64,000 nucleotides of DNA. It comes from Betaproteobacteria bacterium HGW-Betaproteobacteria-1. GTDB taxonomy: Bacteria > Pseudomonadota > Gammaproteobacteria > Burkholderiales > Methylophilaceae. Location of the stretch: positions 62,001 to 126,000 of the forward strand of contig PHCX01000001.1 of assembly GCA_002842435.1 (NCBI GenBank). Reading direction: 5' to 3'. The notes under the pieces are model-generated. The model ran no database searches, had not been told where the DNA came from, and worked only from the letters and a program-made list of their open reading frames with translations. Positions 5,781 through 9,635 of the stretch are shown piece after piece. The translations under genes and the position numbers were made by a program. Position 1 is the first letter of the stretch. Every line of letters begins with the position of its first letter.

Positions 5781-5807
5781 CTGGCACTCTCATATCGTGA
5801 GTGCTAA
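5781..5807 (+). promoter_or_regulatory. CIRCE operator (HrcA site) upstream of rpoH
   Basis: The sequence CTGGCACTC, nine spacer bases, GAGTGCTAA matches the CIRCE consensus TTAGCACTC-N9-GAGTGCTAA at 7/9 positions on the left and 9/9 on the right with the exact spacer length. It lies 30 bases before the rpoH start. HrcA is the known repressor of CIRCE, so this places sigma-32 synthesis under heat-shock repression. hrcA itself is not in the window. Confidence 0.85.
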
Positions 5808-5836
5808 AATGTTTTTCTAGGAGGAACATTCCCAAG

Positions 5837-6697
5837 ATGACCAATGCCATGACCTTGCCGACAATCAGCTCAACCGACGGACTGGACCAGTACATTCGAC
5901 TGGTGAAGTCCTTCCCGATGCTGAGTGCAGAGGACGAATTCGCGCTGGCAACCCGCTTGCAGAAAGATAACGATCTGGAAGCGGCCAAGCAGTTGATTCT
6001 TTCCCATATGCGTTTGGTAGTAAGCATTGCACGTGGGTATTCCGGCTACGGGTTGCCGCAGGCCGACCTGATTCAGGAAGGCAATATCGGGCTGATGAAA
6101 GCCGTCAGGAAATTCGACCCGGAGCGCGGCGTGCGCCTGGTCTCATTTGCCATGCACTGGATCAAGGCCGAGATTCACGAATATATCGTACGCAACTGGC
6201 GTCTGGTGAAGATCGCAACCACCAAGGCGCAGCGCAAGCTGTTCTTCAATCTGCGCAGCATGAAGCAAGGCTTGGGCACGCTGGACACCAAAGAGGTCAA
6301 GCACATCGCCGATGAGCTGAACGTGAAGCCGGAAGAAGTCCTGGAGATGGAAGCCCGCATGAACGGGCATGAAATCTCGCTGGAAGGCTACGGCGATGAC
6401 GATGGCGAAGAAGTTTACAGCCCGATTGCCTATCTGGAAGACCCGAACGCCGAACCTTCGGAGTTTCTGGCCGAAAGACAGGCCGAGCGACTCGAAATGT
6501 CCGGGCTGGCGCAAGCCATGGAAAGCCTGGATGAGCGCAGCCGCCGCATCGTGCAGGCACGCTGGCTGCAGGAGGAAAATTCAGCCACCTTGCACGATCT
6601 GGCCAATGAATTCGGTGTGTCTGCCGAAAGAATCCGGCAGATCGAACAGAAAGCGATGCAGAAGATGCGCTTGATGCTGAGCGAAAGCCAGGCGTAA
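5837..6697 (+). CDS. rpoH: RNA polymerase heat-shock sigma factor RpoH (sigma-32)
   Basis: This 286-residue alternative sigma factor directs RNA polymerase to heat-shock promoters. Region 2 shows the DLIQEGNIGLMKAV and RLVSFAMHWIK motifs, followed by the RpoH-specific box QRKLFFNLR, which distinguishes it from other sigma-70 members. Region 4 ends with a helix-turn-helix (VSAERIRQIEQKAMQKMR). The frame stays open upstream to 5801, but that would begin inside the CIRCE operator; ATG 5837, preceded by AGGAGG at 5819-5824 (a rather long 12-base spacing), is the plausible start. It is monocistronic, ended by a strong hairpin at 6721. The leader may also carry RNA thermosensor structure as in other rpoH genes, which I did not model. 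Confidence 0.93.
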   Translation: MTNAMTLPTISSTDGLDQYIRLVKSFPMLSAEDEFALATRLQKDNDLEAAKQLILSHMRLVVSIARGYSGYGLPQADLIQEGNIGLMKAVRKFDPERGVRLVSFAMHWIKAEIHEYIVRNWRLVKIATTKAQRKLFFNLRSMKQGLGTLDTKEVKHIADELNVKPEEVLEMEARMNGHEISLEGYGDDDGEEVYSPIAYLEDPNAEPSEFLAERQAERLEMSGLAQAMESLDERSRRIVQARWLQEENSATLHDLANEFGVSAERIRQIEQKAMQKMRLMLSESQA

Positions 6698-6775: not shown

Positions 6776-6877
6776 TTATCCGAACAGGATGACGGAGAAT
6801 ATGCTCAACCAGGACATGGTGATCAGTACGATCACAATCGTCAGCGGCAAGTTATAAAACGTAAAATAGTCTTTCAT
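6776..6877 (-). CDS. 33-residue single-pass membrane microprotein
   Basis: Reading the minus strand from ATG 6877 gives MKDYFTFYNLPLTI and continues to a TAA at 6776, ending VILFG. AGAGG lies eight bases upstream of the ATG, which is ideal spacing. Residues 11-32 form one hydrophobic helix with a short polar N-terminus. It sits 14 bases after the ccoS stop and before the shared terminator, so it is the last cistron of a dynamin-ccoS-microprotein transcript. It does not resemble CydX and I cannot name it; small subunits of heme-copper oxidases (CcoQ or CcoM type) are of similar size, and its place beside ccoS makes an oxidase role conceivable. That link is inference. Confidence 0.6.
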   Translation of the reverse strand: MKDYFTFYNLPLTIVIVLITMSWLSIFSVILFG

Positions 6878-6891
6878 CGCTACAACCTCTA

Positions 6892-7104
6892 TCATTTATT
6901 AGCGTCGATTTTATTCTGATTGTCGGTCTGTTTCAAGCGATTGAACGGAATCATCGGATCATCGTCATCCATCAATATCCTCTGCGCCGGACCATCCATA
7001 TCGTCATACTGCCCGTTTCTGATGGCCCACAGAATGCCAAACGCAGCCAAGGCCACGAAAACCACCGTCAACCCCAGCAGAAAGAGGATAGACGAAAGCG
7101 TCAT
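6892..7104 (-). CDS. ccoS: cbb3-type cytochrome oxidase assembly protein CcoS
   Basis: A 70-residue protein with one N-terminal transmembrane helix (about residues 5-28) followed by the family signature WAIRNGQYDDMDGPA and an acidic DDDD stretch. CcoS is needed for cofactor insertion into the CcoN subunit of cbb3 oxidase. Family members usually sit beside the copper P-ATPase ccoI or the ccoNOQP operon; here the start overlaps the stop of a dynamin-like gene by four bases, and no other cco gene is present in the window. The C-terminal tail after PMIPFNR is longer and more polar than the core. Confidence 0.82.
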   Translation of the reverse strand: MTLSSILFLLGLTVVFVALAAFGILWAIRNGQYDDMDGPAQRILMDDDDPMIPFNRLKQTDNQNKIDANK

Positions 7105-9062
7105 GCCACTTTGGCCTGCTCCGCATCAGCCTCGAAATTCAAGGCGTTCTTCATGTGCTGACGCAATATCTTCAATTCGGCCACCTGTGCCTGGATACTC
7201 TTCTCCATGCCTTCCAGTTCACCGATGCGGTCTTCCAGCGTATCCGTTGCCTTGTAGATACGCTTGATACTTTCCAGACGGCGGCGCAGCTGCAACTGAT
7301 GCTCGCGCACCTGTGACTCCATCGGAGCGATCACCGCTTTCAACCAGTTCTCCACATCGTGGTTAGCCACTTCATAAACATGGATCACGCGACTGGCCAG
7401 TGTTTCAAAGAACTTGGAGGTCAGGGTCATTTTCTCATTGGCGATCATGTTCAATGCGGTATTGAATTGTTCCTTGTATGCACGCTCAAGCTTCGCCAGT
7501 TCCTTCTGATAGCGCAGCGTGGAGAAAGAGGGCGCGTCGGCCTTGCGCAAGCCGTGCTCCTTGGAGAACTTCTCGTACATCGCATCCATCATGTTCTTGA
7601 TTTCTTCGATCTGCTTGTCGGACTGCACCATGCGATCCTTCAGATCAGCGAAGAAACCATCCATCGCTGCACGGATGCTCTTGGTGAAATTGGCCGCCAC
7701 CATGGTCTCGCGGGTTTTCACCACGGATTCGCGCACGGCCTTCATGCCAAGTAGCGTGAATAACTGATTGGTCTGTTGCGAGAAAATGCTGCGCAAGGCC
7801 TGGAAGCGCTGCAGGCCCTTCTCGAAGTTCTCCTTGTCGACCTTGACCTTGCTCATCATGTGCTCGACCACATCCTCGTTCTTGCCGCGCAATCCCTTGA
7901 GCTCACCCAGTTGCTCGGTCAGACCTTGCAGACGGGCATCCAGAATCAGATGTGAATTGTTGATGAGGTCTTCGATTTCATTCTGCGTGTTGTCCCGCAC
8001 GATCTCCTTCTTGGAAGGAATCAATTCCTCGGACAGCGCTTTCTCCAGTTCCGGCAGACGGCTCTTAATCAGCAAGGCATCATCGGAATTGACCTTGGCC
8101 AACAAGGCCTTCTGTGCGGAAATCGGGAATATCTGCTTGGCATCAAGGCCCAACAGCTCGGCACTGGTATTGACCTGTTTGGTCAGTTCCTTCTCAATCT
8201 GCACTTCGTCCTTCAACTCATCCCACAAACCATCGATCTTGTTGAGGACGGCCAGACGACCTTTCTGCTTCCAGCGTGTGCCGCTGATATATTGGCGCCA
8301 GACATCGATCTCGGATTTGGTGACGCCGGTATCGGCTGCCAGAATGAACAGCACGGCATGGGCATTGGGCAGCATGTTAAGCGTCAGTTCAGGCTCGGTA
8401 CCGATAGCGTTCAACCCCGGGGTATCCAGAATCACCAGCCCCTGCTCCAGCAATGGGTGCGGCACATTGATCATGGCATAGCGCCAGCAGGGCACATCGA
8501 TGCTGCCGTCACTGTTGAGGCTCATGGCATCATCGGAGTTGTTCGGGTCATAGAGCCCATAACGCTCGGCCTCTTCCACACTGACCTTTTTGGTCGTGCT
8601 GACCTGCTTGAATGCTTCAGCCATGCTATCGCTGGAATCGACATTAAACTCGAACACCTTCCACTCATCCGGATAGTTCTTGTATTCACTGGTGGTGACA
8701 TCCGAAGTACGTGTCTCGATCGGCAGCAGTTGCAGGCAGGTCGGTTTGGATGGGTCGTAAAGCAGCTCCGTCGGGCACATCGTGGTGCGACCGGCAGTGG
8801 AAGGCAAAAGACGTTGGCCGTAGTCGGCGAAGAAAATCGCATTGATCAGCTCGGATTTACCACGCGAAAACTCGGCAACGAATGCGACATTGAGCTTGTC
8901 ATCACGCAGGCGCTCGAGCAGATGCTGAATGCGCTGGTCGATTTGACCGTCATTGAGCTCCTGCTCATTGAGCCAGCTACGGTAATCACATATCGTGTCC
9001 ACCAATGCCTTACGCCACTCTGCGTAAGCAGCAAACTGGTGAGCAAGTTTGTTTTCAGCCAT
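7101..9062 (-). CDS. Dynamin-like GTPase
   Basis: A 653-residue large GTPase. The G1 loop reads AEFSRGKS (63-70), with alanine replacing the first glycine of the usual GxxxxGKS. G3 is DTPG at 213-216 and G4 is NKID at 274-277. The remaining 350 residues are predicted helical and form the long coiled stalk typical of bacterial dynamin-like proteins, without an obvious transmembrane paddle. Family members remodel or tether membranes. It is the first gene of a minus-strand operon with ccoS and a microprotein, so a connection to the membrane or respiratory chain is possible but unproven. Bacterial dynamins often occur in pairs; here only one is seen. Confidence 0.82.
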   Translation of the reverse strand: MAENKLAHQFAAYAEWRKALVDTICDYRSWLNEQELNDGQIDQRIQHLLERLRDDKLNVAFVAEFSRGKSELINAIFFADYGQRLLPSTAGRTTMCPTELLYDPSKPTCLQLLPIETRTSDVTTSEYKNYPDEWKVFEFNVDSSDSMAEAFKQVSTTKKVSVEEAERYGLYDPNNSDDAMSLNSDGSIDVPCWRYAMINVPHPLLEQGLVILDTPGLNAIGTEPELTLNMLPNAHAVLFILAADTGVTKSEIDVWRQYISGTRWKQKGRLAVLNKIDGLWDELKDEVQIEKELTKQVNTSAELLGLDAKQIFPISAQKALLAKVNSDDALLIKSRLPELEKALSEELIPSKKEIVRDNTQNEIEDLINNSHLILDARLQGLTEQLGELKGLRGKNEDVVEHMMSKVKVDKENFEKGLQRFQALRSIFSQQTNQLFTLLGMKAVRESVVKTRETMVAANFTKSIRAAMDGFFADLKDRMVQSDKQIEEIKNMMDAMYEKFSKEHGLRKADAPSFSTLRYQKELAKLERAYKEQFNTALNMIANEKMTLTSKFFETLASRVIHVYEVANHDVENWLKAVIAPMESQVREHQLQLRRRLESIKRIYKATDTLEDRIGELEGMEKSIQAQVAELKILRQHMKNALNFEADAEQAKVA

Positions 9063-9254: not shown

Positions 9255-9635
9255 ATGACCGGACTGACACCGAATTCTCCGCGCCCGACCGACATCCGCC
9301 TGCATCAGGCATCGCGATTGCTCGAGATTATTTTTGACGACGGCAAAAGCGCCCGGCTTTCCTGCGAATTTCTGCGCGTCTACTCCCCCTCTGCCGAGGT
9401 GCGTGGTCATGGCGCCGGCCAGGAAGTCCTGCAAACCGGCAAGGAGGATGTCGATATCACCGGCATAGAACCGGTCGGCAACTACGCCGTAAAATTGGTA
9501 TTTTCCGACGGGCACGACACCGGCCTTTACTCCTGGGATTACCTCTACGAACTTGCCGCAAATTACGAGGCCCTGTGGCTCGAATACCTTGGAAAACTGG
9601 CGATGGCCGGAATCAAACGCAAGGAAACACCATGA
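9255..9635 (+). CDS. DUF971 family protein
   Basis: A 126-residue protein matching the DUF971 fold, which is also the N-terminal domain of gamma-butyrobetaine hydroxylase. It has the typical blocks [25 protein letters not shown] and [19 protein letters not shown]. Its biochemical role is not established; related proteins are often found next to iron-sulfur or quinone genes. Here it overlaps the ubiE start by four bases (ATGA), so it is the leader gene of the ubiquinone operon in this region. Confidence 0.85.

Follow-up and report, generated by a model that had tools for sequence, protein, structure and literature searches.

Oxidases of the cbb3 type support respiration at very low oxygen in many bacteria. 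The CydX-type small subunits of cytochrome bd are single-helix accessory subunits of a terminal oxidase, and CcoQ is a small single-helix protein of the cbb3 enzyme itself. CcoM, from the cbb3 oxidase of Pseudomonas stutzeri, is described in the portions of the literature available to us as a protein of 36 aa with a single membrane helix (PMC8267372, PMC10433244, PMC9264385). For the assembly factor CcoS, the accessible part of PMC8267372 reports that Campylobacter without it nearly loses oxidase activity, which copper partly rescues. Bacterial dynamin-like proteins are the counterparts of the GTPase treated here; most of them are said, in an excerpt of PMC6104087, to be paired in operons.

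We analysed a window of 64,000 nucleotides (contig C1, positions 62001-126000) from a Methylophilaceae genome of 2.5 Mb. An earlier note on this DNA had described genes for a dynamin-like GTPase, CcoS and a 33-residue membrane protein, and all three were borne out, on the minus strand (Table 1); so was the ribosome binding site of the third, which has an ATG start with AGAGG upstream. The ATGA overlap by which the dynamin and ccoS genes had been said to be coupled is present, and is conserved in 16 of the 17 intact pairs scored. The exception is L011, with a spacing of +11; in this scoring L030 is a broken dynamin, and L015 lies outside the scored set yet has the same -4 junction. We refer to the third product as the microprotein.

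Table 1. The trio and its flanking genes, in coordinates of the window
Feature	Coordinates	Strand	Remarks
Dynamin-like GTPase	9062..7101	minus	653 aa; Pfam Dynamin_N PF00350, 1.6e-17
ccoS (FixS family; cbb3 oxidase assembly factor)	7104..6892	minus	70 aa; PF03597, 2.6e-18; TIGR00847
CcoS-associated microprotein (name used here), single-helix membrane protein (predicted)	6877..6776	minus	33 aa
rpoH (sigma-32), convergent neighbour, usual end marker of the cbb3 operon	5801..6697	plus	TIGR02392, 5.3e-123
Gene for a GBBH-like_N protein, last in the ubiE-ubiB block	9255..9635	plus	PF06155; gene order in L122

CcoS scores 65.9 bits against Pfam FixS (cut-off 23.1) and 47.1 bits against the NCBIfam ccoS model (cut-off 28.35, E 1.3e-12), and the GTPase domain of the dynamin scores 64.5 bits against its Pfam model (cut-off 27). 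The window's ccoS belongs with a cbb3 gene set, in that the type-1 cluster of the same genome carries no ccoS and ccoI and ccoS are linked in relatives; by type-1 we mean the cbb3 oxidase whose operon carries a long FixH. From sequence comparison we consider it probable that the trio is the tail of a split cbb3 operon joined by an incoming dynamin gene, and that the microprotein works with the type-1 cbb3 oxidase.

A conserved family of microproteins

The frame of the microprotein is common to the window's relatives, a few of which carry short N-terminal additions; a 39-aa form starting at 6895 was rejected, its start not being common to them. Conservation of this frame, which the earlier note had proposed as a check, is upheld: across 29 Methylophilaceae sequences the mean pairwise differences at the three codon positions are 0.28/0.14/0.60 and the pooled pN/pS is 0.28, and the frame is under protein-level constraint. 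The microprotein can moreover be aligned as a protein across orders. Its predicted model is a single helix over residues 7-32, and a charge falls within the hydrophobic core in only one of 68 sequences. The suggestion that the frame is untranslated, its conservation coming from an RNA element or from chance, is set against the codon-position pattern, the alignment across orders and the near-absence of core charge, and we regard it as extremely improbable.

Scanned singly, 34 members gave no Pfam or NCBIfam family, with best E values of 0.14 and 0.064, respectively, each of these scores being seen in one or two of the 34. Matches of microprotein profiles to the mineralocorticoid receptor in the PDB (E 0.003 with profile A1, 0.06 with A3) fall on a short part of a hormone-receptor domain that is soluble, and were judged to be chance. 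The microprotein belongs to a conserved family to which we found nothing similar in Pfam, NCBIfam or the PDB, and the accessible portions of the literature on small cbb3 proteins yielded no published description of it.

Lysine and arginine are more numerous before the helix than after it in 47 of the 68 sequences and less numerous in none. By the positive-inside rule, our basis for topology, positive residues mark the cytoplasmic side, and their clustering before the helix suggests that the microprotein is probably oriented N-in. One locus (L135:1260-1632) carries two tandem microprotein genes beside rpoH.

Gene neighbourhood and co-occurrence with the type-1 oxidase

Loci from other families and orders usually read ccoN-ccoO-ccoP-ccoG-fixH-ccoI-ccoS-microprotein, convergent with rpoH (only some of these loci were checked for ccoQ). 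This order supports a link to the type-1 oxidase. We counted neighbours in 160 loci drawn from searches for the microprotein, the dynamin or the surrounding stretches, which is not a random sample; merging identical microprotein sites left 130 distinct sites. With a limit of 700 bp, 103 of these have a ccoS upstream on their own strand, 87 have a convergent rpoH, and 75 have both. At four sites the microprotein stands directly before ccoN, and at the remaining 23 neither ccoS nor ccoN adjoins, 12 of these being beside rpoH and 11 stand-alone. At two of these 12 sites, moreover, the microprotein directly follows ccoI, the arrangement of L080 and L081, where no ccoS was recognised.

The four sites adjoining ccoN (L171, L172, L177, L180; three in Halothiobacillus genomes, the fourth in another proteobacterial genome) have the microprotein 313-347 bp upstream of ccoN and not near ccoS; they are 4 of the 40 named loci. 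We call this ccoN an orphan because the next gene is uvrD (L171, L172) or, in the other two, is not recognised as a cbb3 gene by our reference set. Adjacency to such an orphan ccoN favours an association with the oxidase. The 11 stand-alone sites (L076, L077, L079, L082, L083, L087, L090, L096, L105, L119, L120) count against it: no cbb3 gene or rpoH was recognised in the stretch examined, and the neighbours include greB and, in L119, a Crp-type regulator. Also on the contrary side, one other family has four genomes with the microprotein, at rpoH in three and elsewhere in one, in which a search for ccoS alone gave a single match, within a type-2 cluster.

A possible objection is that the microprotein serves rpoH or general membrane stress, and that it sits beside ccoS merely because the chromosomal junction there is conserved. 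The convergent rpoH at 87 of the 130 sites, including 12 with no recognised ccoS, agrees with this objection. However, rpoH is missing within 700 bp from 28 of the 103 ccoS-linked sites (some at a contig end) and from the vicinity of the four orphan-ccoN sites, Methylophilaceae that lost the microprotein lost it together with ccoS while rpoH was retained, and the two genes share no promoter because they converge. We therefore find a service to rpoH unlikely.

In the order sample the microprotein profile matched 39 of 250 genomes; with two matches that look spurious removed (G118 and G135, E 0.004-0.008), all 37 credible genomes have ccoS, as against 180 of the 250 overall. In the class sample it matched 57 of 369 genomes, and ccoS is present in all 52 genomes matched at E<1e-4, against 205 of the 369. 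Five class genomes above that line were dropped (G408, G409, G424, G544, G674); G408, G424 and G544 have ccoS, adjoining the microprotein match in G544, and G409 and G674, without ccoS, have matches that look spurious. Scored by eye, the microprotein is adjacent to ccoS in 43 of the 52 class genomes and not adjacent in seven, with two not listed, and these 7 of 50 scored genomes are a further point against the association. In the phylum sample of 249 genomes there were 5 matches: one in the window's genome, one in another genome of its order, and three weak matches in frames of 1396, 70 and 99 aa, which lie outside the class and were judged to be chance.

Within Methylophilaceae we counted as type-1 ccoN any match of at least 82% identity to the window genome's copy, including partial matches in G285 and G314. 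The microprotein occurs in 39 of the 41 genomes with type-1 ccoN and in none of the 69 without it (n = 110), and the two exceptions are incomplete genomes (G017, 76%; G285, 85%). Such statistics ignore descent, and on a tree built from 30 loci, those without ccoS-microprotein (five) form one clade, that is, a single loss. Because the absence maps to one loss, the family test is weaker than its p-value, and we give more weight to the breadth across orders.

Possible roles of the microprotein

Gene order and co-occurrence, together with the excess of positive residues before the helix, suggest that the microprotein most likely serves the type-1 cbb3 oxidase, as a small accessory subunit or as a partner in its assembly. 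Inserted in the membrane as a single helix, it would pack against CcoN, and would be either a stable small subunit or an aid to CcoS/CcoI-dependent cofactor insertion. It is the phenotype of CcoS loss, as given in the accessible part of PMC8267372, that leads us to think that it may stabilise CcoN or help cofactor insertion. In one branch of this reading the microprotein would serve assembly alone, alongside CcoS and CcoI, and would form no part of the finished enzyme. Its place after ccoS, among assembly genes, at 103 sites favours such a helper, whereas the Halothiobacillus-type microprotein lies beside an orphan ccoN instead, which is not decisive; we put the helper role at somewhat less than an even chance. 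We likewise entertain, tentatively, the broader idea that the microprotein is a widespread unrecognised cbb3 subunit, the last gene of ccoNOQPGHIS in gamma- and betaproteobacteria, which could bind CcoN, including orphan CcoN, and tune stability, oxygen affinity or isoform choice. A conserved small protein tied to one oxidase type would, if true, be a new part of a well-studied enzyme.

Among described small proteins, CcoM as portrayed in the excerpts cited above is similar in length (36 aa against 33 aa), in its single helix, in its link to cbb3 and in having been missed by annotation. No CcoM chain, however, was among the PDB matches to two microprotein profiles at E up to 10, in a library that may not contain that chain; the microprotein is near CcoM in size and, by these profile searches, not detectably related to it. 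A role as replacement for CcoQ was rejected: the hhalign probability is 2.3%, and a ccoQ-like gene is present between ccoO and ccoP of the type-1 cluster. CcoS/FixS resembles the microprotein as a small membrane protein with an adjoining gene and a shared fate, but the microprotein has no FixS match in Pfam or NCBIfam. The CydX-type subunits offer a parallel in size and in the idea of a single-helix accessory subunit, but they show no family match and belong to another enzyme.

The dynamin-like GTPase and the origin of the trio

The predicted model of the dynamin has a mean pLDDT of 83.4, and its best fold matches are BDLP, IniA, Cj-DLP and mitofusin, the closest solved fold being BDLP (2j69, E 4.7e-19). 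BDLP, Cj-DLP, IniA and LeoA have the fold and the GTPase domain in common with it, but identity to bacterial dynamin-like proteins is 13-17% in the fold search. In contrast to the operon pairs that the excerpt of PMC6104087 presents as usual in bacteria, it is single at its locus; the second dynamin-like gene of the genome (L111:5480-7435) is 37% identical and has an unrelated neighbourhood.

The earlier note had proposed a membrane-remodelling step in oxidase assembly, in which the dynamin would take part in cbb3 assembly or membrane arrangement and be coupled through the ATGA overlap for that reason. The conservation of that overlap is in keeping with such a role, as is the pairing of dynamin and ccoS, which is widespread in Methylophilaceae; the trio, whose conservation had also been put forward for checking, has an intact dynamin followed by ccoS in 18 of 24 dynamin loci, plus L030. 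However, in L030 the dynamin is broken with ccoS and the microprotein intact, in five of the 24 loci (L009, L013, L016, L018, L026) the dynamin directly faces rpoH without ccoS and the microprotein, and ccoS was not found after the dynamin in six dynamin loci from other families. A dynamin orthologue occurs in 65 of the 110 Methylophilaceae genomes (the presence list includes partial copies), 26 of them with the microprotein, which amounts to no association (Fisher p = 0.31); 13 of the 39 microprotein genomes have the microprotein and ccoS without a dynamin orthologue. Titles and opening lines of abstracts, moreover, yielded no literature on a dynamin together with a cbb3 oxidase.

The co-occurrence data and the loci with one gene and without the other rule against the dynamin as an oxidase partner, and we hold a role for it in cbb3 assembly to be very unlikely. 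We judge it a later neighbour that is not part of the oxidase module and has no indicated assembly role; all that ccoS would gain from it is transcription and translational coupling. The earlier alternative of chance neighbours thus fits the dynamin and fails for the pair of ccoS and microprotein. The trio is a caution against taking operon neighbours as partners; comparison across relatives separates them.

Of the genome's two cbb3 clusters, the type-1 one (C1, ~130-138 kb) carries ccoN, O, Q, P and G together with a long FixH and ccoI, with no ccoS, and the type-2 one (C2) has the order ccoI-ccoS-N-O-Q-P-G-H. The type-1 FixH (L108:4414-5208) has a long N-terminal extension, with the FixH match spanning residues 147-260 of 264. 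The type-1 cluster starts ~59 kb upstream of the trio, just past the window, so that the earlier remark that cbb3 genes are not nearby holds within the window and breaks down ~4 kb past its right end, where this matching cluster begins. Among the 20 genomes with ccoN and ccoS on one contig, 18 (counted by eye) carry the two on a common strand in the old order, separated by 22-124 kb, the exceptions being G007 and G025. L122 has a block of ~15 kb between ccoI and ccoS that ends with ubiB...ubiE-GBBH and is followed by ccoS-microprotein-rpoH, with no dynamin; in the window the dynamin stands between GBBH and ccoS.

Because the window genome's type-1 cluster lacks ccoS and the ccoI and ccoS of L122 are ~15 kb apart, we infer that a cbb3 operon was split and the dynamin placed upstream. 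Insertion of a block would have split the operon, leaving a ccoS-microprotein tail beside rpoH; the dynamin gene would then have arrived in front of ccoS, to be lost later in some lineages. Block insertion, dynamin arrival and lineage losses appear to be the simplest account, the order of events being itself our reconstruction.

FNR-like sites, exact or with one mismatch, occur before the window genome's type-2 cluster and before some relatives' genes, and none was found before the window's dynamin or the genome's own ccoN1. In L109 an exact FNR-like palindrome lies 48 bp before ccoI2.
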